The position numbers were made by a program, and so were the translations under genes. From contig JAGHJI010000004.1 of the NCBI GenBank assembly GCA_017886765.1, positions 1 through 50,183 on the forward strand: a DNA stretch of 50,183 bases, written 5' to 3'. The stretch comes from Eubacterium sp. Lineage in GTDB: Bacteria; Bacillota; Clostridia; Oscillospirales; Acutalibacteraceae. The notes beneath the pieces are model-generated. The model made no database searches. It saw only the letters and a list, made by a program, of their open reading frames with translations, and was not told the DNA's origin. Shown here in pieces: positions 19,183-40,251 of this stretch (positions are counted from its first letter, which is position 1; the number at the start of each line of letters is the position of its first letter).

Positions 19183-19197
19183 TTATATATAATGATA

Positions 19198-19225
19198 ACA
19201 GGGCTGTGATTTTCACAGCCCTGTT
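19198..19225 (+). repeat. Left copy of duplicated terminator hairpin (element A flank)
   Basis: The stem of the pckG terminator (ACAGGGCTGTGA...TCACAGCCCTGT) without its T tract. Element A follows at once. The same 28 bases with one change recur at 19523-19550, where the T tract is found. Confidence 0.85.
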
Positions 19226-19522
19226 AGACTGTCGATAAAGTCGGCTGAACCACGCCAAGACAAATGTGTGTAGCATGGCATTTTCTTTTGTAGGGGACAG
19301 CGTCCTCGCTGTCCCGTTCTGACGAAGGGATTTTAACAAAAAAACAGCGGTAAGGATATCGAATCCTTACCGCTGTTCTGCGTTTTTCGTTTTTTGCTCG
19401 GGGGCAGTACTCTCGTACAGCTCCCGCTCGCAAGAAAACGAAATTCACCTCGATTTCTCGAAGTCTGTCCAGCGTGTAGGAAGTACATACTTTTCTCTAT
19501 TTACAGTTTTTTCTACACGCTG
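19226..19522 (+). mobile_element. Terminator-nested small element, copy A
   Basis: About 297 bp inserted between the stem and T tract of the pckG terminator. The ends are imperfect inverted repeats: left (T)AGACTGTCGATAAAG, right (reverse complement) CAGCGTGTAGAAAAAA. About 31 bp at the left and about 185 bp at the right nearly match copy B at 30491-30785, while some 80 bp between them is unrelated. The middle here holds a separate hairpin (GGGGACAGCG/CGCTGTCCC). The shared right part contains a strong hairpin at 19343-19377 and a long imperfect one at about 19381-19445. No credible protein is encoded, so a non-autonomous, MITE-like element is the likely reading. Confidence 0.75.
19338..19377 (-). 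terminator. Hairpin inside element A that works as a leftward terminator
   Basis: Stem AACAGCGGTAAGGAT / ATCCTTACCGCTGTT with a 5-base loop, followed on the minus strand by seven T residues. It would end a minus-strand RNA covering the long imperfect hairpin at about 19381-19445. The equivalent hairpin in copy B is at about 30607-30641. Confidence 0.6.
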
Positions 19523-19556
19523 ACAGGACTGTGATTTTCACAGCCCTGTTTTTGTT
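19523..19556 (+). terminator. Right copy of duplicated terminator, with T tract
   Basis: A second copy of the pckG terminator stem (19523-19550, one base different from 19198-19225) directly followed by TTTTTG. Transcripts of pckG that pass the T-less left stem would carry the whole element and stop here. Confidence 0.85.
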
Positions 19557-19567
19557 TGTTAAAAGAA

Positions 19568-19600
19568 ACAGACCCGCTGATTTTATACCAGCGGGTCTGT
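19568..19600. terminator. Terminator of the zinc-ribbon gene
   Basis: Stem ACAGACCCGCTG / CAGCGGGTCTGT; on the minus strand it is followed by TTCTTTTAAC. Confidence 0.7.
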
Positions 19601-19634
19601 TCTGTTTTCTAAAAAAATAGAAATGTAAAAATTA

Positions 19635-20141
19635 TTATCGGTAAATCATAAAAGAGTTTGCAAGCTGGTCATATGAAACAGCCATAAGCGTGAAAAAGAG
19701 AAAAATAAAAATAACTGCCAGTACCCAAAGAACAATGGGCAGGACGATGCCTGCTATGCAGAGGTTTTTTGCTTTCTTTTTATTCAGTTCACTGTTATAG
19801 CTGTATTGATTTGACGGAGGGATCTCGTTGATTTTGCTGATACCGATACAGCCGAAGATAATGCCCAGTATCGGAAAAAACAGACCCAGTATGATTGCTA
19901 AGATGCCCATTGTTCTGGCATCCTCAATCTTTGAACTTATCATATACTCATACGCCTCGGGCGTGTACTGCTGGGCATACGGATTGTATTGGGCGTTCGG
20001 CTGCTGGTAAGTCTGCCGGGTATATCCGCTGTCCCCGGATTGAAAGGGCTGCTGGGTATATGTATTTTCAACAGGTTCACCGCAGTGCTCGCAATAGTAT
20101 ACGCCGTCGGGGATATACTGACCGCATTTCTTACATAACAT
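19635..20141 (-). CDS. Zinc-ribbon membrane protein (DUF4190-like)
   Basis: 168 residues: an N-terminal zinc ribbon with two C-x2-C pairs (LCKKCGQ, YYCEHCGE), a Gln/Tyr/Pro-rich linker, and two transmembrane helices (MGILAIILGLFFPILGIIFG and LCIAGIVLPIVLWVLAVIFIF) with a Lys-rich loop between. This architecture is common in Firmicute membrane proteins of unknown role. ATG 20141 is chosen over an upstream ATG at 20159 because AAGAGTGAT sits just before it. It stands alone, divergent from the phage cluster. Confidence 0.8.
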   Translation of the reverse strand: MLCKKCGQYIPDGVYYCEHCGEPVENTYTQQPFQSGDSGYTRQTYQQPNAQYNPYAQQYTPEAYEYMISSKIEDARTMGILAIILGLFFPILGIIFGCIGISKINEIPPSNQYSYNSELNKKKAKNLCIAGIVLPIVLWVLAVIFIFLFFTLMAVSYDQLANSFMIYR

Positions 20142-20286
20142 ATCTATCACTCTTTTCATCTTTTATATCTCTATTCTATCAAATGCCGATTTGTTAGTCA
20201 ATATAGCAAAATTTTGAATAATCAGGCTAAAAAATTTTTATTTGGCATATTTTCACCGAAAATATAGATGATTTTACGCATAAAAC

Positions 20287-20322
20287 CGCTCTGTACGCTC
20301 CATTAGTGCAGGGCGATTTTTT
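20287..20322 (+). terminator. Terminator-like hairpin upstream of the phage cluster
   Basis: Stem CGCTCTGTAC / GTGCAGGGCG (two G-U pairs) followed by ATTTTTT. It lies 50 bases before the small terminase gene and could insulate or attenuate the cluster. A possible promoter TTGGCA-17-TAGATG lies just upstream. The rest of 20160-20286 is AT-rich with nothing else recognised. Confidence 0.55.
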
Positions 20323-20373
20323 CGTTCTGTAAATATCGGTTAGGGAGATGATTATATTTCAAGAAGAAAGAAA

Positions 20374-20691
20374 GTGACGCAGCGGGATGTGACCGAGGGC
20401 TTCAGGCGCCTTGCCTTCGGCGATATTCAGGACGCGGTAAAGCTTCTTTTTGAAACAGAGGAAAACATACTTTCTTCTCTTCCGGCTCTTGATCTGTTTA
20501 ATATCAGCGAGATAAAACGGCAAAAGGGCGGCGGAATGGAAATCAAGTTTTTTGACAGAATCAAAGCGCTTGAAAAGCTCAGGGAGATTACCGGCGCAGA
20601 CGAAAGGCAGACAGCGCTATCCTTTTACGACGCGCTTGAAAAAAGCGCCGGCAGGATCGGCGAAAAGGAAAAAGAGGATATTTATGACTGA
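20374..20691 (+). CDS. Phage terminase small subunit-like protein
   Basis: About 105 residues, VTQRDVTEGFRRLAFGDIQDAVKLLF..., helical, immediately upstream of and overlapping the large terminase, which is the basis of the call. GTG 20374 is the only standard start. However, a better ribosome site (GGGAG, 20343-20347) points at ATT 20356, which would add the basic residues ISRRKK typical of a DNA-binding N-terminus. The real start may therefore be a non-standard ATT. Confidence 0.65.
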   Translation: MTQRDVTEGFRRLAFGDIQDAVKLLFETEENILSSLPALDLFNISEIKRQKGGGMEIKFFDRIKALEKLREITGADERQTALSFYDALEKSAGRIGEKEKEDIYD

Positions 20692-21943
20692 GTTTACTCC
20701 TTTTTCAGAAAAGCAGCTTTTTGTTTTAAACTGGTGGTGCAAAAACAGCAAATTCAGAGACAGAAACGGAATCATCTGCGACGGCGCCGTCAGAAGCGGG
20801 AAGACGCTTTGTATGAGTATATCCTTTATCTGCTGGGCGTTTTACACTTTCAGCGATACGTCCTTTGCCTTTTGCGGAAAGACCATCGCTTCACTGAGAC
20901 GGAATGTGATTACGCCTTTGTTGCCGGTGCTGGGTGACCTGGGCTTTAAGTGCGAGTTTAAAATCAGTAGAAATTATTTGGAAATATCCAGAGGCGGCTT
21001 TTCAAACCGCTTTTATCTTTTCGGCGGCAGGGACGAATCCTCCGCCTCTCTGATACAGGGGATGACGCTGGGCGGCGTAATGTTTGACGAGGCGGCGCTT
21101 ATGCCCCGCTCCTTTGTGGAACAGGCGATAGCGAGGTGCTCCCTGGAAAACGCCAAATATTTTTTTAACTGCAATCCCGAGCATCCGTATCACTGGTTCT
21201 ATTTACAATGGATAAAAAGGTGCCGGGAGAAAAACATGCTTTATGTCCATTTCACAATGGAGGACAACCCCTCCCTTTCCGAGACGGTAATAAACCGGTA
21301 TAAAAAGCTCTATTCAGGAGCGTTTTATGAACGTTTTGTGGAGGGCAGGTGGGTGGCGGCGGACGGATTGGTCTATCCTATGTTTGTCCACAGCCGCCAC
21401 GTAAAAAAATACGCCGGCAAAATATACGAGTACTATCTGTCCTGCGACTACGGTACCGTGAATCCCTTTTCACTGGGGCTTTGGGGCAGAGGCGAGGATG
21501 GGTGGTACAGGCTTGACGAGTATTATCACTCCAGCCGTGACAAGGGCGTTCAGCTTACGGATGAGGAATACTATCAGGCGCTTTTGCGTCTAGCAGGGGA
21601 CAGAGAAATCAAGGCGCTGATAGTGGATCCGTCGGCAGCGTCCTTTATCCAGACCGTCAAACGTCATAACCGCTGCAGAGTCATAAAGGCGGATAACGAT
21701 GTGAACAGCGGTATAAACCGAGTGTGTCAGGCGCTTAAAAATGATGAGATATTCATCTCTCCCAACTGTACTGACGCGATAAGGGAGTTTTCGGTCTACC
21801 GCTGGGACAACGGTATCAAAAAGGACGCTCCGAAAAAAGAAAACGATCACGCGATGGATGATATAAGGTATTTTGTATCTACCGTGCTGTATAAGCAGGT
21901 CAGATCAGATTCCTTTGCGTCCGTTGCCATAGAAAGGAAATAA
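20684..21943 (+). CDS. Phage terminase large subunit
   Basis: 419 residues; the ATPase and nuclease that pumps DNA into capsids. Walker A is DGAVRSGKT (33-41), Walker B VMFDEAALM, coupling region NCNPEHPYHWFY, and the RNase H-like nuclease begins at LSCDYGTVNPF with a later VDPSAASF and DDIRYF. All key residues are kept, so packaging activity is plausible. ATG 20684 overlaps the small-subunit stop by 8 bases and fits the family start MTEFTPFSEKQ. The frame is open further upstream, but that part is the small terminase read out of frame. Confidence 0.92.
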   Translation: MTEFTPFSEKQLFVLNWWCKNSKFRDRNGIICDGAVRSGKTLCMSISFICWAFYTFSDTSFAFCGKTIASLRRNVITPLLPVLGDLGFKCEFKISRNYLEISRGGFSNRFYLFGGRDESSASLIQGMTLGGVMFDEAALMPRSFVEQAIARCSLENAKYFFNCNPEHPYHWFYLQWIKRCREKNMLYVHFTMEDNPSLSETVINRYKKLYSGAFYERFVEGRWVAADGLVYPMFVHSRHVKKYAGKIYEYYLSCDYGTVNPFSLGLWGRGEDGWYRLDEYYHSSRDKGVQLTDEEYYQALLRLAGDREIKALIVDPSAASFIQTVKRHNRCRVIKADNDVNSGINRVCQALKNDEIFISPNCTDAIREFSVYRWDNGIKKDAPKKENDHAMDDIRYFVSTVLYKQVRSDSFASVAIERK

Positions 21944-21945
21944 CT

Positions 21946-23070
21946 TTGGGCTTATTAAATTTCAGAAAAAATAAAAGGAATACGGTTTCCGCCTCAGCGG
22001 TGCAGACTTCGCCGGGGACAAGGCATCCGTATTACCAGCTTTCGTCGTATATGCCGATGAACGGTATGTCGCGTGTCTATGCCCAGGTGCGCGAGGCTGT
22101 TCCCATCATTGACGCTGCTGTCAATAAAATCATAAGACTGACGGATGGCTTCCGCTTTGAAACAGGGGATGAAAGACTGAATGAAAAAATGAACAGCTAT
22201 TTTGAGCAGATAAACGTGGGTGGAACGCAGCAGGGAATATCCGCTTTTGTTTCCAACTATCTCAGCCAGCTTTTAACCTTCGGCACCGCAGTCGGCGAAA
22301 TGGTTATCGGAGACGGAGAAATATACGCGCTTTACAACAGCGAGTTATCCGGATTGGAATTCAGAAGGGCATCCAACGGAATTGACGTTGATTTTTATAC
22401 CTGCAATGAAAAAATTGCCAATCCCTCTTTGATCCTTTATTCCGTGCTTAATCCGAAACCGGGAAAGCTCTGCGGCACCAGTATTCTGGAGGGACTGCCG
22501 TTTATCAGCGATATTCTTATGAAAATTTACAATACCATCGGCGAAAACTGGGAACATGCCGGCAATATCAGATACGCGGTTGTCTGCAGACCCTCCGGCG
22601 ATACGGACAGCATGGACGCGCAGAGCAGAGCGGACGCTGTGGCGAAGGCCTGGAGAGAGGCTATGGATTCAACCAGCGTTAAGGATTTTGTAGCGGTAGG
22701 AGATGTGAGCGTACAGGTGATAGGGGCGGACAATGTCTGTCTAAACAGCGAGATACCCGTAAGACAGCTTCTGGAGCAGATTGTAGCAAAAACAGGGCTG
22801 CCGCCCTTTATGCTGGGGCTTAACTGGTCCTCTACGGAAAGGATGAGCACGCAGCAGGCGGATATTCTTACCACGGAGCTTGAGGCCTACAGGCGTATTC
22901 TCACTCCGGTAATAAGCAAAATCGGTGATATGTACCTTGCCCTGAGCGGTGAAAGCCGCAGGGCAACGGTCATATGGGATGATATTACGCTCCAGGACGA
23001 ATGTGACAGTGCAAAAGCCAGACTCTATATTGCTCAGGCGGAAAAAACAGAAAGGGAAAATTCAGTGTAG
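21946..23070 (+). CDS. Phage portal protein
   Basis: 374 residues. The dodecameric portal ring is the usual product after the large terminase. Supporting features are MGLLNFRKNKR, REAVPIIDAAVNKIIRLTDG, GTSILEGLPFI and GLPPFMLGLNW with ERMSTQQADI near the end. It starts with TTG two bases after the terminase stop, preceded by GAAAGGAAA. It is shorter than many portals, with no long C-terminal extension. Confidence 0.85.
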   Translation: MGLLNFRKNKRNTVSASAVQTSPGTRHPYYQLSSYMPMNGMSRVYAQVREAVPIIDAAVNKIIRLTDGFRFETGDERLNEKMNSYFEQINVGGTQQGISAFVSNYLSQLLTFGTAVGEMVIGDGEIYALYNSELSGLEFRRASNGIDVDFYTCNEKIANPSLILYSVLNPKPGKLCGTSILEGLPFISDILMKIYNTIGENWEHAGNIRYAVVCRPSGDTDSMDAQSRADAVAKAWREAMDSTSVKDFVAVGDVSVQVIGADNVCLNSEIPVRQLLEQIVAKTGLPPFMLGLNWSSTERMSTQQADILTTELEAYRRILTPVISKIGDMYLALSGESRRATVIWDDITLQDECDSAKARLYIAQAEKTERENSV

Positions 23071-23079
23071 GACTACTGA

Positions 23080-24060
23080 ATGGGTGTATGTATGACTATT
23101 GGATATATTGAAAAAGATTTTTCACCCCAGGAAAGCGATCTGCAGAAGATCAACAGATTTACCAGAAGTGAATTCGGCGCTGACAGCCTTTACATTTTCA
23201 GCGCGGCGCTGTGCAACAATGACGTTGACAGGGATTATGAAAAATTCTCGCTTCAGGCGCTGGAAGAGCTGAGTAAAAAATTCCTGGGGAAAACGGGTAT
23301 CTCCGACCATTCTATGAAGGCCTCCGACCAAAAGGCCAGGATTTTCGATACTTGGGTAGAAAAGGTGGAGGGCAGAAAAACGGCGGACGGCGAGGATTTT
23401 TATCAGCTGAAGGCCAAGGCGTACATGGTGAGAAGTCAGGAAAACGCAGACCTCATTACAGAAATTGAAGCGGGAATAAAAAAGGAGGTTTCCGTTTCCT
23501 GTTCCATGGGCAGCAGTGTATGCTCCATATGCGGCTGTGACAAAAGAAAGGGATACTGCGAGCATATAGCTGGCCGGGAATATAACGGAAAAACCGCTTT
23601 CACCATTCTGTCAGACGTCAGGGACGCGTATGAATTCAGTTTCGTGGCAGTACCTGCCCAGCGTGAGGCGGGGGTCACAAAATCTTTAAAACATATGAAA
23701 GGAAAAAATGAAATGACGCAGATCATAAAAACGCTTAAAAACTGCGGTGATGAAATTGTACTTTCCGCAGAACAGGCTGAGGAAATTGTAAAAGGCTTTG
23801 AAAGTTTATCAGAAGAAGCGGCTCTCGGCAGGGAATACAAAAAAAGTCTGACAAACGAGGTTATCAGCCTCTGCGCCAAGGCTATGCCGGAAATGGACCT
23901 GAATGTTTTCAGCGGCGTGGCCCAGGTGATGACCACAAAGGAACTGCTTTCATTCAAAAAAGCCTTTGCCAAATCAAAGAAACCGGAGGGCGCTGTATTG
24001 CAGCTTAAACCCGAAAAGCGTGAGCCGGCAGGCGGTGCGCATGCCAACTACAAAATTTAG
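23080..24060 (+). CDS. Capsid maturation protease / scaffold-like protein
   Basis: 326 residues between portal and capsid genes, the place of the prohead protease. The N-terminal half has GISDHSMKASDQKARIFDTW (candidate catalytic His) and EVSVSCSMGS (candidate Ser), then a cysteine-rich insertion (CSICGCDKRKGYCEH) that looks like a metal-binding knuckle. YEFSFVAVPAQREAGVTKS ends the protease part. Residues from about 210 are helical and acidic, as in fused scaffolds. Starts at 23080 or 23092 are both possible; AGG is better spaced for 23080. Confidence 0.75.
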   Translation: MGVCMTIGYIEKDFSPQESDLQKINRFTRSEFGADSLYIFSAALCNNDVDRDYEKFSLQALEELSKKFLGKTGISDHSMKASDQKARIFDTWVEKVEGRKTADGEDFYQLKAKAYMVRSQENADLITEIEAGIKKEVSVSCSMGSSVCSICGCDKRKGYCEHIAGREYNGKTAFTILSDVRDAYEFSFVAVPAQREAGVTKSLKHMKGKNEMTQIIKTLKNCGDEIVLSAEQAEEIVKGFESLSEEAALGREYKKSLTNEVISLCAKAMPEMDLNVFSGVAQVMTTKELLSFKKAFAKSKKPEGAVLQLKPEKREPAGGAHANYKI

Positions 24061-24072
24061 GAGGAAAACATC

Positions 24073-25071
24073 ATGGCATTTGATAACATAAAACTTGAAA
24101 AAGGACTTTACACAACAGGAAAATCATTTACGAAGGCGCTGGAAGAAATCGATCCGTCAGAAAATTACAGAGGCACCTCTCTTGAGGGGCTGGACGCTTA
24201 TGAGAGACAGCTCAAGAGATTTGACATAAAGGTGTCAGGCTCAAATTCAGATCCGGTCTCAAAATTCTTTGCCACCACCGATTCTGCGGCACTTTTTCCG
24301 GAATACGTTTCAAGAGCCGTACAACTCGGTATGACGAGTGACAATAAGGTTGAGAGAATCGTTGCAACCACTACGGAAATTGACAGTATGGACTACAGGT
24401 CCATCTCTACCGGAAATGTAACAGCAGATTTTGCTCTTTCAGAAGTGGAAGAAGGTGAAACGCTCCCGGAGCTTACGATTAAGCTGAATTCCAATCTCAC
24501 TAAGCTCAAAAAGCACGGCAAAATGCTTGTCTCGTCCTATGAGGCGATTAAGTTCCAGAAGCTCGATCTGTTTACCGCGGTGCTTAAACAAATCGGTACA
24601 TATATTGCCAACAGTGAGTTTGAGCAGGCGCTGGAGGTGATCGCAAACGCGGATAATATAAGAAATCTTACCCTTCAGACCGAAACTTTAGGCTTTGCGG
24701 ACATAGTAAACGCATGGGCAACCTTTGCCCCGTACAGAATGACAAGCCTTGTAGTGAATCCAAATTCATTGGCAAAACTCTTACTTATGGAGGAATTCAG
24801 AGATTCCTATGCCGGAATGGATGCACACGCTACGGGCAATATGATTACACCATTCGGCGCCGAGCTTTTCTCAACCGGTGTACTGCCGCAAAATGTGGTG
24901 CTTGCCTTTGATAAAAACTGTACAGTTGAAAAGGTACAGGCGGGCGGCGTTATAACAGAATTTGACAAGCTTATTGACCGCCAGCTTGAACGCGCCACGA
25001 TTTCAACGATTGTAGGCTTCTCTACTATTTACGGAAATGCGGCCTCCCTTCTCAAACCTGCCGGGGACTAA
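24073..25071 (+). CDS. Major capsid protein (HK97-fold)
   Basis: 332 residues, positioned after the protease and preceded by a strong AGGAGG. Features are a helical N-terminal segment, ESRAV-like PEYVSRAVQLG, a long E-loop-like stretch (FALSEVEEGETLPELTIKLNS), then KKHGKMLVSSYEAIKF and LVVNPNSLAKLL as in the HK97 A/P domains. It is intact and not shortened. Confidence 0.85.
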   Translation: MAFDNIKLEKGLYTTGKSFTKALEEIDPSENYRGTSLEGLDAYERQLKRFDIKVSGSNSDPVSKFFATTDSAALFPEYVSRAVQLGMTSDNKVERIVATTTEIDSMDYRSISTGNVTADFALSEVEEGETLPELTIKLNSNLTKLKKHGKMLVSSYEAIKFQKLDLFTAVLKQIGTYIANSEFEQALEVIANADNIRNLTLQTETLGFADIVNAWATFAPYRMTSLVVNPNSLAKLLLMEEFRDSYAGMDAHATGNMITPFGAELFSTGVLPQNVVLAFDKNCTVEKVQAGGVITEFDKLIDRQLERATISTIVGFSTIYGNAASLLKPAGD

Positions 25072-25083
25072 AGGCGGAGCAAA

Positions 25084-25437
25084 ATGACGGATTATACATT
25101 AGTCAAAGAAGAGCTTATGAAAGCGCTGGGATGCGACGAGGCGCAGGCGGAACAGTATGAATCTTATATAAATAGCGCGCTTGCGTCCGTTGCCGCAATG
25201 CTTCAAAGCGATGAGGATGAAAACGATATACGTGTTGTAACACTGTGTGCGATGAAAGCATATTACCAGATCATTCTGACGCAGGAGGATGACGGTATCA
25301 TTTCTTTTAAAGCCGGTGACGTTTCGTATACAAAGGAAGAAACATCGGTATCCAGGGCAAAGGCATTATTAAGAGCGGCAGAGGAAAACTGCGGCGGTTT
25401 GGTGTACGGCGGCAGCTTTGCGTTCAAGGCGGTGTAA
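25084..25437 (+). CDS. Head-tail connector (gp6-like)
   Basis: 117 residues, helical, starting MTDYTLVKEELMKALG with a conserved CAMKAYYQIIL core and KAGDVSYTKEE. Length, position right after the capsid gene and helix pattern fit HK97 gp6/YqbG-type adaptors. Ribosome site GGCGGAG. Confidence 0.65.
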   Translation: MTDYTLVKEELMKALGCDEAQAEQYESYINSALASVAAMLQSDEDENDIRVVTLCAMKAYYQIILTQEDDGIISFKAGDVSYTKEETSVSRAKALLRAAEENCGGLVYGGSFAFKAV

Positions 25438-25438
25438 A

Positions 25439-25792
25439 ATGAAAAAGGATATTATAAAAAGCCAGCTGGATAAGGCGGGCAGGACGGTTTATCTTAAGGA
25501 CGGCGCATGGAGGTCCGTACCGTTTAAAGCCTGTGTTTCCCACCTGTGGAGGAAAAAGACTTCCGCTTTTGAGCCGGAATATGCCCAGCTTGGCAGGAGC
25601 TTTTCCGAATATTACCTTTATATCGGGCCTTACGGTCACGATATTACATCATTGTCCGGTGACGCTGTGCTGGAGCTGGATGGTGAAAATTATGCCTTCA
25701 AACACGCCGACGCCGTTCTTTTCGGCGGAGAGGTTATTTACTATACAGGGATACTGAAAAGAATAAAGGGGGCTGACTGGGATGAAAATTGA
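25439..25792 (+). CDS. Head completion / head-tail joining protein
   Basis: 117 residues starting MKKDIIKSQLDKAGRTVYL, beta-rich, one base after the previous stop. Its position between connector and tail-completion genes suggests a head-closure protein. No specific motif is recognised, so function is from context. It overlaps the next gene by 11 bases. Confidence 0.55.
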   Translation: MKKDIIKSQLDKAGRTVYLKDGAWRSVPFKACVSHLWRKKTSAFEPEYAQLGRSFSEYYLYIGPYGHDITSLSGDAVLELDGENYAFKHADAVLFGGEVIYYTGILKRIKGADWDEN

Positions 25793-26177
25793 AAATATAC
25801 TTGACGCGCTCATCCATCTGATAGAATCGGACGATTATTTCTCTTCTGTAAATATTCTGAAAGCGTATCCCTGCTCACCGGCGCCAAGCCGTCTTGCGGG
25901 AGAAACGGTAGCGCTGGGACTGGAGAAAATCAAAATGTCCTCCTCAAGCGTGGACGAAAGCAACAGAACCGGTGAAATATCCGTGTTTGCCGATATATTC
26001 ATACCTGTAAAAAAATCAAACGACAGAGCCTTTGATATTTTATCAAAGCTTTGCGGATGCTTCTGCGTTTATAATGTTCTTTCTGTGTCGGCTCAGCGGA
26101 TCGCAGTGGATGTGAACACCGCTTCCTATGTGCTTAAAACGGTTTTTACTTTTAACGATGAGATTGAGGTGAATTGA
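25782..26177 (+). CDS. Tail completion/terminator-like protein
   Basis: 131 residues, MKIENILDALIHLIESDDYF..., of mixed alpha/beta type with a conserved-looking GETVALGLEKI and VDVNTASYVLKTVF. In related phages the gene at this place caps the tail tube or joins it to the head. The call is by order only. GGTG-type ribosome sites and an 11-base overlap tie it to the previous gene. Confidence 0.5.
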   Translation: MKIENILDALIHLIESDDYFSSVNILKAYPCSPAPSRLAGETVALGLEKIKMSSSSVDESNRTGEISVFADIFIPVKKSNDRAFDILSKLCGCFCVYNVLSVSAQRIAVDVNTASYVLKTVFTFNDEIEVN

Positions 26178-26267
26178 ATGAACGAAAATATTGATATTGC
26201 AAAGCAGATAAGCGAGATCATACGCCTGGACCAGAAAAGGTATGATAAAAGCGGCGGTGATGTGTAA
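26178..26267 (+). CDS. 29-residue frame in place of the sheath-tube-tape measure genes
   Basis: MNENIDIAKQISEIIRLDQK and nine further residues, ending with TAA directly before the next ATG. It has a proper ribosome site (GAGGTG, six bases before ATG), so it is probably translated. It may be a coupling peptide or the start of a deleted tail gene. Its position is exactly where four or more tail genes are missing. Confidence 0.45.
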   Translation: MNENIDIAKQISEIIRLDQKRYDKSGGDV

Positions 26268-26774
26268 ATGAAATTAAAATTCAGGGATTTTGAATTCCCT
26301 GTTAATCCGTCGGACATAGAGATTTCATCGTCATCCAACTGCGTGAGCAGGGCGGTCTTAGGGAAAAACAGCAATGTCCAGAACCTATCCGTTAATCCGG
26401 TGACTGTTACCGGCAGCGGAGCATTTTACGGCGATAACGGCGGAGAATACTGCGCCATGCTTCAGAATATGCTGAAAGATAAAAGTCCCGGCTGGCTGCT
26501 GATACCCTCCGCTCCTCCGGTAAAAGCCTTTTTTACAAAGTTTACATTCAATAAAAACTGTAAGAAGAATTGTGTGCAGTATTCCTTTGCATTTACCGAG
26601 GATTGTACACAGCGCGCAGCGGAAAAAGCTTTCACTTGTACTGTTGCGAAAGAGGGTGAAAACGCCTTTGACATCGCGTACCGGTGTTCCGTGACGGTGG
26701 ATGATATTATGAGACTGAACGATATCAGAACGCCGTTTGATATTGCGGAAGGGAGCAGAGTGATCATCAGATGA
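26268..26774 (+). CDS. LysM-containing baseplate protein (XkdP-like)
   Basis: 168 residues. The N-terminal part FRDFEFPVNPSDIEISSSS is typical of XkdP/gp53 proteins next to the tape measure in contractile phages. The C-terminal ~50 residues form a LysM (AKEGENAFDIAYRCSVTVDDIMRLNDIRTP). It would bind peptidoglycan or stabilise the baseplate hub. It is shorter than PBSX XkdP. The stop overlaps the next ATG (ATGA). Confidence 0.75.
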   Translation: MKLKFRDFEFPVNPSDIEISSSSNCVSRAVLGKNSNVQNLSVNPVTVTGSGAFYGDNGGEYCAMLQNMLKDKSPGWLLIPSAPPVKAFFTKFTFNKNCKKNCVQYSFAFTEDCTQRAAEKAFTCTVAKEGENAFDIAYRCSVTVDDIMRLNDIRTPFDIAEGSRVIIR

Positions 26775-27721
26775 AAATAGTTTTGAAAACAATCAGCGGA
26801 ATGGAATATGAGCCGGAGGAAATCACGGAGATTAATTTTACTCGCACCGCAGGTGTAGCCTGCGACAGTATCCGTTTAAGATTTAAAAGTTCGGATCACC
26901 GCGATGAAATCGTTACAGTTAAAGCCTTTAATGCCGGTGAGATGATTTTTAACGGCTATTGTGATAACCAGAGAATCAGTGAGGACGGCGGCGGATACGA
27001 AGTTTATATATACGCACGTTCGTCCGCCTGTATCCTTGTTGACAATGAGGCTGAACCTTTTACATACAATATGCCCACCGCAAACCAGCTTTGCTTCACT
27101 TTTGCAAGACCTTTCGGCTTTTCAGGAAATCTGCCCGTTATTGAAAGCAAGGAAAAGTATGAGGTTACCAAAGGGACTTCCTGTTACGGAGCGATAAGCG
27201 GTTTTGTGTCCATGGCGGCGGGAAAGCATATATATATTTCTCCGCAAAACCGTATTCAGCTTCTTGAAAAAAGCGAGGATATTGAAAACCTTGGAAAGTA
27301 TGGTGTCCTAAGCGCAGCGACGGTTATAAACCGGAGCGAGCCGCTGACGGAGGTGCGTTTCAAAAAGACGTCGTCCGCTTCCGGTTACAGACTGCACATG
27401 AGGGCGCAGGCGCGGCAGGATTTTAATTTTAATGAAAGGGTCCGTTATGTCAATCTATCCTCTCTGCCCCAGTGGCAAAGGAAATATACCGTTTTAAAGA
27501 CGCTGAAAAATTCCTTTGAGGATTATCGGACCCTTGAGGTTACGGTGACGGGTTATATGAGCAAGCCTTTGCTCCAGCGCTTTTCTTACAGTTCGGGAAT
27601 CGGCGCGTACGAGGAGTATATTTTAACCGAAAAGGAATATATATACAGCGCGTCGGGAGAAATGACAAAGCTTACACTGAAAAAAGAAATCGATATAAAG
27701 GAGATAACGTATGTGGATTAG
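26771..27721 (+). CDS. Baseplate hub protein (XkdQ / gpD-like)
   Basis: 316 residues starting MKIVLKTISGMEYEPEEITEI, beta-rich, with the hub pattern DNQRISEDGGGYEVYIYARSS and VTKGTSCYGAISGFVSMAAG. In contractile phages this protein, after LysM, forms the hub around the spike. Both flanking genes overlap it, showing a coupled operon. Confidence 0.7.
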   Translation: MKIVLKTISGMEYEPEEITEINFTRTAGVACDSIRLRFKSSDHRDEIVTVKAFNAGEMIFNGYCDNQRISEDGGGYEVYIYARSSACILVDNEAEPFTYNMPTANQLCFTFARPFGFSGNLPVIESKEKYEVTKGTSCYGAISGFVSMAAGKHIYISPQNRIQLLEKSEDIENLGKYGVLSAATVINRSEPLTEVRFKKTSSASGYRLHMRAQARQDFNFNERVRYVNLSSLPQWQRKYTVLKTLKNSFEDYRTLEVTVTGYMSKPLLQRFSYSSGIGAYEEYILTEKEYIYSASGEMTKLTLKKEIDIKEITYVD

Positions 27722-28067
27722 CAGAAAGCTGATATCAAAAGAGGACACACCTGCGATACAGAGCGGTATGAGTACGCTGAATCATAATGGGCAGGTGGAG
27801 GCGGTATCCACCGGAGCGGAGAGAGATATCCGTATCTATTCGCCTTACGGCTACAGCTTTTCACTGCCGTCGGGTGTGGAAATGCTGCTTTCAAACAGCT
27901 CCGGGCAGCAGGCAGCGATAGGTACCCTTATGCAGAATACGGATACAGAGCCGGGAGAAATAAAAATCACCGCGGCATCCGGAGCGTGTATCCGTCTGAA
28001 GAACAATGGTTCAGTGGTGATAAACGGAATGGAAATTGACAAAGACGGGGTGATCGTCGGTGAGTGA
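27711..28067 (+). CDS. Baseplate spike/assembly protein (gpV-like)
   Basis: 118 residues, beta-rich, with an OB-like GERDIRIYSPYG-type region and a repetitive C-terminal stretch (IKITAASGACIRLKNNGSVVING) like the beta-helix of short spikes. It is shorter than P2 gpV. Position between hub and gp25-like gene supports the call. Confidence 0.6.
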   Translation: MWISRKLISKEDTPAIQSGMSTLNHNGQVEAVSTGAERDIRIYSPYGYSFSLPSGVEMLLSNSSGQQAAIGTLMQNTDTEPGEIKITAASGACIRLKNNGSVVINGMEIDKDGVIVGE

Positions 28068-28338
28068 TAAGAACCCTATTATCCGCCGTGTCCTGACGGA
28101 CTGCGTTACCGCGTTTATCTGCCCGAGGGGAGAATTTTATCCTGACAAGGACTATGGAAGCCGGATTATGAAAAACATTGTTACCGCGGATATACAGACC
28201 CTGCTTTGTTACGCCAGACAGGCGGTAAGCGAAATGGACGGCGTATTTGTCAAATCAGCGGTGAAGGAGAAAGACAACATATTATTTAATATTCTGATAA
28301 ACCATGAGGAAGGGCAGGTGAGCATCCCGGTTGAATAA
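28060..28338 (+). CDS. Baseplate wedge protein (gp25/gpW-like, XkdS)
   Basis: 92 residues, GTG start behind GGGGTGAT and overlapping the spike gene by 8 bases. It shows the gp25 signature of a short positive N-terminus, GREFYPDKDYGSRI-like CPRGEFYPDKDYGSRI, and VSEMDGVFVKSA. It joins hub to J-like protein. Confidence 0.75.
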   Translation: MSDKNPIIRRVLTDCVTAFICPRGEFYPDKDYGSRIMKNIVTADIQTLLCYARQAVSEMDGVFVKSAVKEKDNILFNILINHEEGQVSIPVE

Positions 28339-29404
28339 GACGTATGAACAAATCATGGAAGAGATGAAAAACGCGTATTTCAGCGAGTGCGGTGAAAGGC
28401 TTGACGATTATTCACAGACTGCAAAAAGGCTTGAGGCTGTAGCCGGAGAGCTGTATGCGATCTCCTGTTACGGTGATTATATATTCAGACAGGCATTTAT
28501 ACAAACTGCCACAAAAGAAAATCTTGACAGGCACGGTCAGGTCAGAAACTGCGTCAGAAAGACGGCGGCCAAAGCCTCCGGTACTCTGACCTTTTATATT
28601 GACCAGCCGGCGGAGGAAAAAATCGAAATAGCGGAAGGTACAGTCTGTTCAGCGGAAAAATTTCCCTATATCCAGTTCGCCGTAACACAGAGCGGGTCGA
28701 TTGAAGCAGGACAGACCGGCGTTACGCTGCCCGCGGAGGCGCTCTCCAGCGGCAGTGATTATAATCTGGAGTCCGGCACGGTTACCGTTATGGTAAACGC
28801 GCCCGTGGGTGTGAGCGGCGTCAGAAATGATATACTGTTTACCGGCGGATATGATGATGAAAGTGACAGCGCTTACAGGCAGAGGATTCTGGCGCATTAT
28901 TCTGTTGAGCCTAACGGTGTAAATGCGCAGTCCATAGCCAACGCTGTTTTGCAGCTTGATTTTGTAACCGACTGCTATATACCAGACGCGGATACCCCGG
29001 GCAAGATTACGACGGTTGTCGCCACGAAGAACAACCTCATCACTGCAGAGCAGACAGAACAGGTGAAAAAAGCCGTAGGGATAGACGAGCTTACGGGAGC
29101 GCAGATTGATGTTCAGCTTGCCCAGCCTCAGGAATTTTCCATAGTGATCGAAGCATATATCCGCTCAGGCTTTGATAAGGAGAATGTGAAGACGGAAATG
29201 GAAAGAACAGTCCGGGAAATCTGCTCGGCATGCAGAATCGGAGAGGCGCTGATGCTGAATACCGTGTCAAAAAAGCTGGCGGCTGTTTCTGAAATCAGCA
29301 GTTTCAATATTTATTCAAACGACGCTTACGGAGAGGTTGTTCCCTGCGCAAGCAAAAGCTATCTCTATCTTGAAAATCTGGCGGTGAATTGCTTTGACGA
29401 ATGA
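28331..29404 (+). CDS. Baseplate J-like protein (XkdT)
   Basis: 357 residues of the gpJ/XkdT family. N-terminal YSQTAKRLEAVAGELYAI, middle TFYIDQPAEEKIEIAEGTVC, the hallmark FTGGYDDESDSAYRQRIL and PNGVNAQSIANAVLQLDFV, and the end NTVSKKLAAVSEI. It starts with TTG inside the gp25-like gene. Complete length suggests it is under selection. Confidence 0.85.
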   Translation: MNKTYEQIMEEMKNAYFSECGERLDDYSQTAKRLEAVAGELYAISCYGDYIFRQAFIQTATKENLDRHGQVRNCVRKTAAKASGTLTFYIDQPAEEKIEIAEGTVCSAEKFPYIQFAVTQSGSIEAGQTGVTLPAEALSSGSDYNLESGTVTVMVNAPVGVSGVRNDILFTGGYDDESDSAYRQRILAHYSVEPNGVNAQSIANAVLQLDFVTDCYIPDADTPGKITTVVATKNNLITAEQTEQVKKAVGIDELTGAQIDVQLAQPQEFSIVIEAYIRSGFDKENVKTEMERTVREICSACRIGEALMLNTVSKKLAAVSEISSFNIYSNDAYGEVVPCASKSYLYLENLAVNCFDE

Positions 29405-29954
29405 AAGGTTATATGAAAGACTTTCCTCGCTTTTTGACAAGCTGGGTATAGAGCATCCTGCCGGCTCGACTGAAAATGCGGAGCTTATGGCGTACTGCGT
29501 CGGAATAGACAGTGTGTACAAGGATTTTGAACTTTATTTCAGTCAGCTATTCGCGGATACAGCTTCGGGATTGGGTCTGTCTCTTTTCTGCGAGCTGTTT
29601 AAGCTTGATTCCGGCCTGGCGGACTCTGAGAAAAGAACGCTTATTATACAGGGACTCGGAAGGCAGTATGGTGATTACATATTCGGCACGATGGAAAGTG
29701 CATTTGAAAAGTTAGGAGGCTTTTCCGTAAGCTGTGAGCATTTTCTTCTCACCATTAACGGCTCGGTTAAGGATGATCCGGCCCTGCTTTCCAAGGCAGG
29801 AAAAATCATTGAAAATAATCTTCCGCCCTGTACGGCGGCGAAATTCAGCGGAGACGGCGCCGATTTTGATTACTGGGATTCCACCGATTTTTTATTTGCT
29901 GAATATGATGATCTGAAACTGGGATTTGAACTTTTGGATACAGTAACAGTATAA
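29394..29954 (+). CDS. Tail protein I-like (XkdU/YmfQ)
   Basis: 186 residues following J, the normal P2 gpI place. MTNERLYERLSSLFDKLG, then ERTLIIQGLGRQYGDY-like KRTLIIQGLGRQYGDY, and the C-terminal LLSKAGKIIENNLPPCT pattern common to this family. TTG start (29394) behind GGTGA, overlapping the J gene by 11 bases. Confidence 0.7.
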   Translation: MTNERLYERLSSLFDKLGIEHPAGSTENAELMAYCVGIDSVYKDFELYFSQLFADTASGLGLSLFCELFKLDSGLADSEKRTLIIQGLGRQYGDYIFGTMESAFEKLGGFSVSCEHFLLTINGSVKDDPALLSKAGKIIENNLPPCTAAKFSGDGADFDYWDSTDFLFAEYDDLKLGFELLDTVTV

Positions 29955-29968
29955 GTAAAGGAGAGAAA

Positions 29969-30451
29969 ATGAGCAGTACAAATAAGACAAAAAATCTGGG
30001 ACTGAACAGCTGGATAGGCTCCGATAAACCGAAAAGAATTGATTTTAATACGGACAACGAGATAATAGACCAGGTCGTTTCCGGCCATAATCAGGATACC
30101 TCCCTCCATATCAGCGATGACGAAAGGGAAAGATGGAACAACTATATGTTTACCGGAATGTATTACGGAAACGGGACGACACAGCGGGTTATTACCACAA
30201 GCTGTCCCTTTGAGGCGAGAATCGGTTTTGTATTTGCCAACAGCAGAACGATGTCCATCGTGCGTTTTTCAGAATCGAAGAACAATAATTATTTCGGCAT
30301 CTTCGGCTTCCTTGCAAATTCGCTGGGTATTAAACTGAATGACGACTGCAAAAGCTTTACGGTTAATCAGAGCGCTTCCGCGATGACATCGAGTGAATAT
30401 GCTAATTTCAACGAGTCGGGCGTGGCTTATCATTATGTAATGTTCAGATAA
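29969..30451 (+). CDS. Short tail-fibre-like protein
   Basis: 160 residues behind AAGGAGAG. The N-terminal baseplate-attachment pattern KNLGLNSWIGSDKPKRIDFN and the HxxDxxLHISDDERERWN motif are typical of short Clostridia phage fibres. The rest is beta-rich with no receptor domain recognised. It is the last gene; its terminator is split by element B. Confidence 0.7.
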   Translation: MSSTNKTKNLGLNSWIGSDKPKRIDFNTDNEIIDQVVSGHNQDTSLHISDDERERWNNYMFTGMYYGNGTTQRVITTSCPFEARIGFVFANSRTMSIVRFSESKNNNYFGIFGFLANSLGIKLNDDCKSFTVNQSASAMTSSEYANFNESGVAYHYVMFR

Positions 30452-30466
30452 TAATTATAAAACTGT

Positions 30467-30490
30467 ACTCCGGATCTTTTGGTCCGGAGT
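30467..30490 (+). repeat. Left copy of duplicated terminator hairpin (element B flank)
   Basis: A 24-base hairpin (ACTCCGGATC...GGTCCGGAGT), the stem of the fibre gene's terminator without T tract. It is repeated without change at 30786-30809, where the T tract follows. Confidence 0.88.
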
Positions 30491-30785
30491 CAGACTGTCG
30501 ATAAAGTCGGCTGAACCACGCCGAAATAAAATACAACAATCCGTTTTGCCTCCCTTGTTAAAGGAAGGTGGCAGCGCGTAGTGCTGACGGAGGGATTCTA
30601 ATAAAAAGCAGCGGTAAGGATATCGAATCCTTACCGCTGTTGTGCGTTTTTCGTTTTTTGCTCGGGGGCAGTACCCTCGTACAGCTCCCGCTCGCAAGAA
30701 AACAAAATTCACCTCGATTTCTCGAAGTCTGTCCAGCGTGTAGGGATACATACTTTTTTAAATTTACAACTTTTTCTACACGCTG
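30491..30785 (+). mobile_element. Terminator-nested small element, copy B
   Basis: About 295 bp with the same ends and right-hand part as copy A (19226-19522), in the same orientation. Ends: left CAGACTGTCGATAAAG, right (reverse complement) CAGCGTGTAGAAAAA. The middle differs from copy A and holds a hairpin-forming repeat (CCTCCCTTGTTAAAGGAAGG). Differences from A in the shared right part are single bases plus a short AT-rich patch near the end. An internal inverted copy of the left end (reverse complement CAGACTTCGAGAAATC) lies at about 30717-30732. Confidence 0.78.
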
Positions 30786-30816
30786 ACTCCGGATCTTTTG
30801 GTCCGGAGTATTTTTT
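30786..30816 (+). terminator. Right copy of duplicated terminator, with T tract
   Basis: Exact second copy of the 24-base stem followed by ATTTTTT. It restores termination for transcripts leaving the phage cluster through element B. Confidence 0.88.
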
Positions 30817-30817
30817 C

Positions 30818-30846
30818 TTTACTTTATTGATATATTGTACTATAAT
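30818..30846 (+). promoter_or_regulatory. Promoter of the panT-coaX operon
   Basis: TTTACT at 30818-30823, a 17-base spacer and TATAAT at 30841-30846. The leader of about 88 bases contains hairpins CGGCAAA/TTTGCCG (30865-30885) and ATGCA/TGCAT (30893-30905). I recognise no known riboswitch in it. Confidence 0.6.
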
Positions 30847-30940
30847 ACTAACGCATTGTATCCGCGGCAAAAATAAGATTTGCCGGGTGGTTATGCACTT
30901 TGCATTCCGCTCAGGAACAGTAGCAGAAAGGAAATTTAAT

Positions 30941-31519
30941 ATGAAAACAAACACACGGAAAATCGCAGGGACCGGTCTGCTTACTGCTATAGTAGTGGTG
31001 CTTCAGCTGCTTGGCAGTTTTATAAAACTCGGTCCTTTCTCCATCTCACTTGTGCTTATACCAATAGTAGTCGGTGCGGCGCTGTATGGTAAGCTGGCAG
31101 GTGCGTGGCTGGGTCTGGCTTTCGGCATAGCCGTTCTTGTGTCAGGCGACGCGGCGGCGTTTATGACGATCAATCCTGCCGGCGCAATAATTACCGTTAT
31201 CGTCAAGGGACTGCTTGCCGGACTTGCGGCAGGGCTGGTTTACAGTCTGATTGAGAAGAAAAATAAGACGGCGGCAACGATTGCGGCTGCGATTGTATGC
31301 CCTGTAGTCAATACAGGCGTGTTCCTTATCGGATGTTCGCTGTTCTTTATGGACACGGTAAGGCAGTGGGCGGAAGGCGCCGGTTTCGGCTCTTCGGTAG
31401 GAACGTATATGATCGTCGGTTTGGTAGGGCTTAATTTTGTATTTGAACTGGTGATAAATATTGTACTTTCACCTGTGATTGTTAAGCTTGTAAGACTGGG
31501 AAAGAAGGAAAGCAAATGA
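30941..31519 (+). CDS. panT: ECF transporter substrate-binding (S) component, probably for pantothenate
   Basis: 192 residues with about six helices (for example LGPFSISLVLIPIVVGAALYG, VLVSGDAAAFMTINPAGAIITV, MIVGLVGLNFVFELVINIVL) and the small-residue-rich pattern of ECF S components. Substrate is inferred from four-base overlap with coaX, whose product phosphorylates pantothenate. AGAAAGGAAA precedes ATG 30941; the frame continues upstream through the leader but without a good start. It needs the shared EcfT/EcfA1/A2 module encoded elsewhere. Confidence 0.75.
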   Translation: MKTNTRKIAGTGLLTAIVVVLQLLGSFIKLGPFSISLVLIPIVVGAALYGKLAGAWLGLAFGIAVLVSGDAAAFMTINPAGAIITVIVKGLLAGLAAGLVYSLIEKKNKTAATIAAAIVCPVVNTGVFLIGCSLFFMDTVRQWAEGAGFGSSVGTYMIVGLVGLNFVFELVINIVLSPVIVKLVRLGKKESK

Positions 31520-32280
31520 TTTTAGCTGTAGACATAGGAAATACGAATATTGTACTGGGGTTTCTGGACGGAGAAGAGCTGATTCACGAATGCCGGCTTA
31601 CCACGGCGGCTGATGATTCGGCCGACGAGTATGCCATTAAATTTAAAAGTATATTTGAAATTTTTGATATAAGGGTTGAGGATATTGAGGGCAGCGTGCT
31701 GTCCTCGGTGGTGCCGCCCCTGAACAGGACCATCCCCAAGGCGCTTATGCTGATTACCGGCAAGAAGCCGATTGTTGTGGGACCGGGTGTGAAAACGGGG
31801 CTGAACATAAAAATCAACAATCCTGCGGAACTGGGCGCAGATATGGTGGCCGGCGCGGTGGCAAGTATATCCAAATACCCCTGTCCGCAGATCGTTTTTG
31901 ACCTGGGTACTGCCACAACTGCCTCTGTTATTGACAGAAACGGCTGCTTTCTCGGCGGCTCCATCGTCTGCGGAGTAAAGACAGGTTTGAATGCGCTTAC
32001 GTCCTCAACAGCGCAGCTGCCGCAGATCGAGATCGTGGCGCCTGAAAAGGCTGTGTGCGCTAATACGATTGATTCCATGCGCAGCGGTACGGTCTTTGGC
32101 ACGGCAGCAATGCTTGACGGAATGATAAAAAGGTTTGAGGCGGAGCTGGGCGAAAAAGCCACCGTAATCGTTACGGGCGGTCTGGGCGGTGTGATTGCCA
32201 ACTATTGCGAGAGCGACATGATCGTTGACAGACATTTGCTGATTGACGGACTCCGTATAATATATGAGAAGAACAAATAA
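31516..32280 (+). CDS. coaX: Type III pantothenate kinase
   Basis: 254 residues, the first enzyme of coenzyme A synthesis. ASKHA-fold motifs: phosphate 1 LAVDIGNTNIVLG, base of the pocket PIVVGPGVKTGL, the metal-binding LGADMVAGAVA, phosphate 2 IVFDLGTATTASVI and GGSIVCGVKTGLNAL, and adenosine motif VIVTGGLGG. The ATG overlaps the panT stop (ATGA), indicating coupled translation. Confidence 0.95.
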   Translation: MILAVDIGNTNIVLGFLDGEELIHECRLTTAADDSADEYAIKFKSIFEIFDIRVEDIEGSVLSSVVPPLNRTIPKALMLITGKKPIVVGPGVKTGLNIKINNPAELGADMVAGAVASISKYPCPQIVFDLGTATTASVIDRNGCFLGGSIVCGVKTGLNALTSSTAQLPQIEIVAPEKAVCANTIDSMRSGTVFGTAAMLDGMIKRFEAELGEKATVIVTGGLGGVIANYCESDMIVDRHLLIDGLRIIYEKNK

Positions 32281-39725: not shown

Positions 39726-40077
39726 GGGGGTGAAAGGCTTTCGACAGGGTTGTTGAGCCTTGGTCAGCGAGTAGCGGAGTTGCACCGCTTTAAAAGTAAC
39801 AACTTAAAATGAACTGACAAAGATAGATCAGTAGCTCTTGCTGCTTAATTAGCGGCTTGCGTTCTCTTACAGAGCGCCACGGCTGCATGAGGGCGTCGAC
39901 TTAGTGGCGAACATGAATGAAAGAGCGCCTCGGCTTTCATCAGGAATCAGAGGATACCGTAGGTCCAAGGCTGTCTGCCGCCGTGGACTGAGGGGATAAC
40001 CCAAAAGACAGACTACACTCGTAGAGCCCTTGGTAAGATGATTTTGGACGCGAGTTCGATTCTCGCCACCTCCACCA
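39726..40077 (+). ncRNA. ssrA: Transfer-messenger RNA
   Basis: 352 nt. The tRNA-like ends pair as GGGGGTG / CACCTCC with discriminator A and encoded CCA; conserved 5' AAAGGCTTTCGACAGGG and 3' T-arm GCGAGTTCGATTCTCGC are present. The tag frame ends in codons for DKDRSVALAA followed by TAA (about 39818-39850), giving the usual degradable -ALAA tail. The 5' neighbour is smpB. The 3' end is the attachment-like site of a later duplication. Confidence 0.95.
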
Positions 40078-40107
40078 GCAAAGCACCGAAAGGTGCTTTT
40101 TATTTTT
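40057..40107 (+). repeat. Direct repeat 1: tmRNA 3' end plus terminator
   Basis: The last 21 bases of ssrA, GCA, and the terminator hairpin AAAGCACC-GAAA-GGTGCTTT with T tail. It recurs at 40202-40251 with one T missing. Confidence 0.9.
40080..40107 (+). terminator. Terminator of ssrA
   Basis: AAAGCACC / GGTGCTTT with a GAAA tetraloop, then TTATTTTT. Confidence 0.9.
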
Positions 40108-40201: not shown

Positions 40202-40251
40202 CGATTCTCGCCACCTCCACCAGCAAAGCACCGAAAGGTGCTTTTATTTTT
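40202..40251 (+). repeat. Direct repeat 2: copy of tmRNA 3' end plus terminator
   Basis: Matches 40057-40107, including the CCA end and the GAAA-loop terminator (40225-40244). It lacks the rest of tmRNA, so it is not a gene. Confidence 0.9.

Follow-up and report, generated by a model that had tools for sequence, protein, structure and literature searches.

Stem-loop targeting is already known within the IS1182 family. In the sections consulted of two reports, IS1272 and TnSha1, IS1182-family elements of staphylococci, are described as inserting at stem-loops, including terminators, that have no base sequence in common, and each report cites Siguier for the statement that some IS1182 members target palindromes (PMC5678879, PMC4923244). 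According to the same sections, new IS1272 insertions replace the stem-loop with no target duplication, and older copies lie at inverted repeats or elsewhere (PMC5678879); insertion of TnSha1 deletes part of the stem-loop, again with no target duplication (PMC4923244). A cruciform model has been drawn for IS1272, in whose pathway b the element is joined to the stem at its 5' feet and the whole stem-loop is duplicated, and in whose pathway c the loop is duplicated (PMC5678879). ISPse1 (PMC3281130) and ISCaa15 (PMC3196728), both IS1182 elements by their authors' classification, make 4-bp duplications, and no hairpin target is named for either in the portions consulted. Bacterial MITEs are described as short and gene-free, with terminal inverted repeats, many copies and strong secondary structure, and none is named in the consulted sections of that account as having a whole terminator hairpin for its target duplication (PMC10969869).

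Our literature search, which had ISfinder and TnPedia outside its scope, recognised no MITE of the IS1182 family and no observed duplication of a whole stem-loop in the parts of the articles that it covered. Long, variable duplications are listed for the IS1182 family in ISfinder and TnPedia, and those entries may thus already show stem-loop duplication. Group IIC introns insert just behind terminator hairpins; they are retroelements, are not known to make a target duplication and have ends other than those of the elements described below.

The stretch of DNA analysed here as a whole, termed the window, comprises 50,183 nt of a Eubacterium sp. draft genome and contains two related elements, A and B, each lying between two copies of a stem-loop. 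Their features are as follows.

19198..19225, no strand assigned: left stem-loop copy downstream of the PEP carboxykinase gene, 28 bp (27 bp if position 19225 belongs to the element), by repeat comparison
19226..19522, + strand: MITE copy A, 297 bp, by genome search and end mapping
19343..19377, + strand: internal terminator-like hairpin of A, by hairpin and terminator scoring
19470..19522, + strand: terminal palindromic unit of A, by copy comparison
19523..19550, no strand assigned: right stem-loop copy at A, identical to the left copy at 27 of 28 bases
30467..30490, no strand assigned: left copy of the duplicated terminator stem-loop at B, 24 bp, by repeat comparison; no T tract 3' of it on the + strand
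30491..30785, + strand: MITE copy B, 295 bp, by genome search and end mapping
30491..30507, + strand: left end of B, CAGACTGTCGATAAAGT, equal at 16 of 17 bases to the left end of L066, a complete IS1182-family element
30607..30641, + strand: internal hairpin of B, terminator-like on either strand; its stem sequence varies among element families
30671..30682, + strand: apex (GTAC-loop-GTAC) of a conserved hairpin inside the element, with pairs that covary
30718..30731, + strand: RE1, an inner motif resembling the right end, TTTCTCGAAGTCTG, by copy comparison
30734..30785, + strand: terminal palindromic unit CAGCGTGTAG...CTACACGCTG, which bears the outer right end, by copy comparison
30786..30809, no strand assigned: right stem-loop copy at B, followed by a T tract, by repeat comparison

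Copies A and B are very probably MITEs moved in trans by a CAG-ended IS1182 transposase, with repair copying the whole stem-loop at which they insert. At many unrelated sites the duplicated segment is the stem-loop, with the dyad at its centre; sites A and B each have a single hairpin in relatives; and complete IS1182 elements with ends of this kind show the same duplication. The presumed mover resembles IS1272 and TnSha1, as described in the sections consulted, in its IS1182-type transposase and its stem-loop targets. It differs from them in that the whole stem-loop is duplicated, in that the mover would belong to a CAG-ended clade, and in that A and B themselves are MITEs. Replacement of the stem-loop in the manner of IS1272 was considered and rejected for the present elements: the stem-loop is present twice at complete copies, and one incomplete Eubacterium sp. 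copy (L021) is free of a hairpin on both sides.

The original prediction, made from the sequence of the window, had placed B within an exact 24-base duplication of a terminator stem, and both the duplication and its coordinates were right, all 24 bases of 30467-30490 and 30786-30809 being equal in a self-comparison of the window. The duplicated 24 bp form a palindrome around their own loop, and ATTTTTT directly follows the right copy on its 3' side. On the + strand the left copy lacks a T tract, so that termination may fall to the internal hairpin together with the right copy. Were the T at 19225 an altered first base of element A, the duplication there would measure 27 bp. The stem-loop at A differs from that at B; the hairpins at the two sites are unrelated in sequence, as had been claimed for the flank of B relative to the pckG one. 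The predicted architecture, with inverted ends, a conserved left end, a conserved right part and a variable middle, likewise held: the inverted ends of B, CAGACTGTCGATAAA and CAGCGTGTAGAAAAA, are equal at 11 of 15 bases, the left end common to A and B extends over 42 nt at 90% identity (two of these nucleotides belonging to the flank), the common right part over 142 nt at 97% and a further 41 nt at 88%, and the middle differs. Neither A (297 bp) nor B (295 bp) contains an open reading frame of 100 amino acids, in keeping with MITEs, which are short and gene-free and have inverted ends and many copies. Upstream of site B (about 24073-30451) the window also has head and baseplate genes of phage type and, beyond these genes and site B, a cellular type III pantothenate kinase gene (31516-32280).

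The Eubacterium sp. draft (1.90 Mb in 91 contigs, 98% complete) was searched with B as query, giving 47 matches. Of these, 18 were the internal palindrome hit a second time and one was a further piece of a copy already counted; the others are 28 places, and joining the halves of three insertions broken across contig ends left 25 insertions or remnants. Both ends are present in 18 of these, 15 of them contiguous (L001, L002, L004-L011, L013, L015, L016, L018, L022) and three split (C25/C64, C23/C65 and C15/C8) with the same hairpin on the two halves. A stem-loop copy lies on each side of all 18, and the 18 stems are all different; this genome-wide set of two-ended insertions thus bore out the expectation that the flanks would be hairpins, and with it the view that the shared geometry of A and B is not due to chance. 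The hairpin copies have diverged in some cases, by two mismatches at L018, three at L022, one loop base at L016 and one arm at L002 and L013. Four further copies (L003, L014, L019, L021) have neither the terminal palindrome nor a full right hairpin copy; L014 retains part of the latter, and L021 has no hairpin on either side. Two remnants (C84, C16) consist of the right part only, each with a hairpin adjoining its right end. At C24:23971 the match covers no more than some 52 nt, all from the variable middle, and this is perhaps a different repeat: the corresponding piece of B, at about 30548-30599 (CCTCCCTTGT...GACGGAGGGATTC), is found alone at C24:23971-24023, and G013 matches positions 54-120 of the query, so that this piece may be a separate small palindromic repeat that has come to lie within the element.

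Like L003, L014, L019 and L021, further short forms (L078, L082, L087, L108, L129, L143 and L161, among others) have the terminal palindrome partly or wholly missing. None of these forms carries a full right hairpin copy, the inner end often lies next to a T-rich stretch, and they are either deletions or one-ended insertions. There are also tandem dimers (L090, L124, L128, L169, L177), composed of two left-end-to-RE1 units in series; where both ends are visible, the dimer has a single terminal palindrome and is bracketed by the hairpin copies.

The order of parts is the same across the element families: left end, variable stretch, terminator-like hairpin, GTAC-loop-GTAC hairpin, RE1 and terminal palindrome. 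The last of these, about 31-54 nt long, is made up of two facing ends, the outer one being the right end; the possibility that it is a separate mover was rejected, as 15 of 15 occurrences in the Eubacterium sp. genome are parts of known copies. Pairing of the left end with RE1 was set aside, the apparent covariation in a few copies (G029, L009) being broken in L023 and L287. Consensus folding of 54 units was uninformative, and in a block of 39 sequences only a six-pair apical hairpin was supported. In these 39 sequences the apex hairpin has 17 cells changed on both sides, compared with 2.9 in shuffles, and 98.3% pairing, compared with 89.2%; support from covariation is nevertheless moderate, because a single pair accounts for 12 of the 17 two-sided changes and pair types are no more numerous than in shuffles (5 compared with 5.1). 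Elements that are otherwise related can have stems of unrelated sequence in the terminator-like internal hairpin (as L023 does relative to the other Eubacterium sp. copies), which looks, from comparison of the copies, as if the hairpin were swapped as a cassette. The presence of this hairpin may render an insertion harmless.

The same parts of the element bear on a further alternative, namely that the elements would be kept not only as selfish DNA but as mobile terminators or 3'-end RNAs useful to the host, an idea that is compatible with movement by IS1182. Of 92 units, 85 have an internal hairpin with a stem score of at least 8, and among its 69 distinct cores many are variants of each other; the hairpins of A and B score as terminators on both strands, and the other hairpin covaries; all this would suit a host function. 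The patchy presence of the element, whose left end was found in 8 of 31 genomes of the genus, and the near relative G031, which has no match to B, argue against it, and we consider such a role unlikely.

The shape of the duplicated target was measured in a pooled set made up of the Eubacterium sp. copies, 40 hand-chosen stretches from eight members of the genus, and loci at which the exact 18-base left end was found in 84,980 scanned species genomes, a scan that gave at least 108 stretches. As the genus stretches were mainly places with both ends, that set is biased towards complete copies. The 80 titles among the scan matches listed are mostly of Clostridia, Oscillospiraceae or Ruminococcaceae, with some chance matches in unrelated phyla. 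Among the matches listed, 176 distinct left ends were counted, 83 with a flanking direct repeat and 93 with none, the latter comprising contig ends, chance matches in unrelated genomes, indels in the hairpin and real short forms. Exclusion of 14 of the 83 for length or score left 69 measured duplications among the matches listed (14 from Eubacterium sp., 23 from the genus and 32 from the scan). A stem-loop (stem score of at least 7) is present in 66 of these 69, and in 58 (12, 18 and 28 in the three sets, respectively) it is also centred within 1 bp of the dyad, so that 11 of the 69 duplications among the matches listed fail in stem or centring. Of 5000 random windows of the same lengths, which served as the control in place of other intergenic hairpins, 430 contain a stem-loop and 39 of these are also centred.

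Length was compared with stem size in the 62 of the 69 duplications among the matches listed that are centred within 2 bp. They are 18-36 bp long, most of them near 25 bp, their length correlates with the distance spanned by the outermost G-C pair (r = 0.72, n = 62), and the cuts usually fall 1-3 bp outside that pair on each side. The prediction that duplication length equals stem length is therefore nearly, but not exactly, correct. A T tract on the 3' side (at least four T in eight bases) or an A tract on the 5' side (at least four A in eight) accompanies all 62 duplications among the matches listed, and both tracts accompany 44, compared with 31.7% of random positions having a T or an A tract. 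These results suggest that the elements recognise the hairpin and no base sequence, and hence that DNA shape is read. The predicted target had been a hairpin plus T tract, not a sequence of bases: its hairpin part is upheld by the stem-loops, their centring and the variety of stems, and a T tract as part of the target is only compatible with the data, since most hairpins between genes are terminators. A conventional transposon that prefers terminators and cuts with a fixed stagger, so that its duplication would cover the hairpin incidentally, could account for the terminator-like surroundings of all 62 sites and for the clustering of lengths near 25 bp; the range of lengths, their correlation with the stem and the centring of 58 of the 69 on the dyad, all among the matches listed, render it very improbable.

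The proposal that A and B depend on a transposase of IS1182, a family that the original prediction had left unnamed, derives from complete elements in related genomes. DUF772 transposases were found in 7 of 80 genomes of the genus. Two of them, L065 and L066, carry Pfam DDE and DUF772 domains and score 420.7 and 410.8 bits against the IS1182 model NF033551 (cut-off 270). L065, with the ends CAGCTTGTCGAAAAAG and CAGTCTGTAGAAAAAC, is flanked by two exact 24-bp copies of a stem-loop, and L066, with the ends CAGACTGTCGAAAAAG and CAGACTGTAGAAAAAC, by two exact 26-bp copies. The MITEs thus share their ends with an autonomous IS1182 element, the left end of the MITE equalling that of L066 at 16 of 17 bases; the right ends are less similar (CAGCGTGTAGAAAAAG in the MITE, CAGACTGTAGAAAAAC in L066). 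An internally deleted IS1182 copy, L115, retains a 111-amino-acid piece 72% identical to transposase P0001 and has two different hairpins as flanks; its 18-base left end is that of the MITE by selection, because L115 was found through that end.

Hits to IS1182 occurred in 17 of 197 genomes of the order and gave 22 loci, which together with L064-L066 made 25 loci for examination. Eight of these (L065, L066, L326, L327, L328, L330, L331, L332) combine CAGnnTGTC left ends with a stem-loop duplication, of 24, 26, 28, 30, 27, 34, 35 and 31 bp, respectively, the 35-bp one (L331) with two mismatches. In L324 and L325 the ends contain CAG and each side bears a hairpin, but the two hairpins differ; recombination is supposed to explain these unlike flanks, and L324, L325 and L115 are perhaps hybrids of two insertions. 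Another eight loci, L329 among them, have other ends (of the GGGGCTGT or CTGTTGACAAA type) and no whole-hairpin duplication. The remaining seven (L064, L337, L340, L342-L345) were excluded as masked, incomplete or unclear, which left 18 transposases for a tree. The ten hairpin-flanked elements (the eight together with L324 and L325) lie on one side of a branch with support of 95/95, and none of 500 shuffles produced as clean a split. L329, an IS1182 element of another genus, groups with two others beside this clade (support 94/88). Its insertion point is the loop of a 13-bp stem, and its 7-bp duplication is the loop region; the cross-flank stem of 13 compares with a maximum of 8 in 2000 random pairs. 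Since L329 was scored in the tree as having no hairpin flank, yet lies in a hairpin loop, the clade result applies to whole-hairpin flanks only. L339, which has no duplication, splits an A/T-rich palindrome of 9 bp at its centre, where 2000 random pairs reached at most 8.

No IS1182 transposase was found in the Eubacterium sp. draft by way of DUF772, transposase P0001 or NF033551 (at E up to 1e-60), and P0001 has hits in only two of the eight MITE-bearing genomes, one of the hits being a fragment. A repeated IS could have been lost from a draft of 91 contigs, and a partner elsewhere would be compatible with descent from IS1182 despite the missing partner in the draft. A retroelement priming beside terminators, in the manner of group IIC introns or as a passenger of one, would also occupy terminator hairpins, and several short forms do lie between hairpin and T tract with the second copy absent. 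We regard it as very improbable, given the terminal inverted repeats, the target duplication at all 18 two-ended Eubacterium sp. insertions (which sets these MITEs apart from group IIC introns), the presence of such ends and duplications on complete IS1182 elements too, and a search of 19000-31000 against Rfam with no match up to E = 1.

Element-free counterparts of both sites were found in relatives. For site B, six relatives were searched and five stretches read: one plain hairpin and no element follow the homologous gene in G031, G064, G054 and G067, and G049 has a single hairpin with a long loop and no element, so that there is one hairpin in five of five. For site A, matches were present in 75 genomes, and the best 30 of the 75 loci were read, including that of Eubacterium sp. 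and thus 29 of the 74 others, one of which (L187) offered too little sequence, leaving 28 to be scored. Among these 28 relatives (from the 29 best of 74 loci read), all show a terminator-like hairpin no more than 170 bp behind the carboxykinase gene, 27 have no element end, and inspection of the flanks by eye revealed no identical second hairpin copy. The terminator stem behind the carboxykinase gene (L183-L211) differs in most relatives, including G031, in which the gene is 99% identical to that of Eubacterium sp. The notion that the flanking hairpins are the element's own pair of terminators, rather than target sequence, would fit their occurrence at all 18 two-ended Eubacterium sp. copies; the stem differs at every site, however, and for A and B the notion is refuted by relatives that have one hairpin at the same place and no element, so that we give it practically no credence. 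Origin of A and B from one duplicated block or by gene conversion, rather than by two insertions, is suggested only by the 97% identity of their right parts over 142 nt and is hardly conceivable, being already refuted, as the original prediction of independent sites implied, by the different target hairpins, the different neighbours (a GTP-type PEP carboxykinase gene at A, phage-type baseplate and head genes at B), the single hairpin of relatives at both sites and the 16 further two-ended insertions.

Movement of A and B in trans by the CAG-ended IS1182 transposase would proceed as follows. A DDE transposase would attach one end of the element to the 5' foot of the stem on each strand, and repair of the gaps would duplicate the stem-loop, whatever its length. 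The two 5' feet would be near each other only with the palindrome extruded as a cruciform or held as hairpins, a cruciform intermediate and this order of cuts being the arrangement that we infer. Since repair would copy the whole stem-loop, the target duplication would be the hairpin itself and its length would vary with the stem. Whole-hairpin duplication fits pathway b of the model drawn for IS1272, and L329 fits pathway c, its loop duplication being predicted by the cruciform model as well; in the sections consulted, both outcomes had earlier existed only as branches of that drawing (PMC5678879). What is added here is whole-hairpin duplication at dozens of sites, tied to one transposase clade, and loop duplication in its neighbour L329. 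ISPse1 and ISCaa15, of the same family, differ from the CAG-ended elements in their short duplications, as far as the portions consulted describe them.

A broader reading is offered tentatively and is rather less likely than not: this branch of IS1182 and its MITEs would insert purely by shape, the hairpin would set the length of the duplication (the whole stem-loop in one clade, the loop in its neighbour), and the MITEs would repeatedly adopt target terminators as internal ones, becoming mobile terminators that leave termination intact. The cruciform model can now be tested directly by altering the stem and reading the duplication. The insertions are in addition a natural record of terminators exposed as hairpins in a genome, and the elements may provide a tool by which DNA is placed behind genes with the genes unbroken.

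Two further places in the window have terminator-like hairpins. The one at 151-178 has almost the same stem as site A (ACAGGGCTGTGA...) and no element. Positions 40057-40106 and 40202-40251 form a 50-nt direct repeat, 96% identical, with a terminator-like hairpin at its end; in contrast to the flanks of the elements, this repeat reaches upstream of the hairpin.
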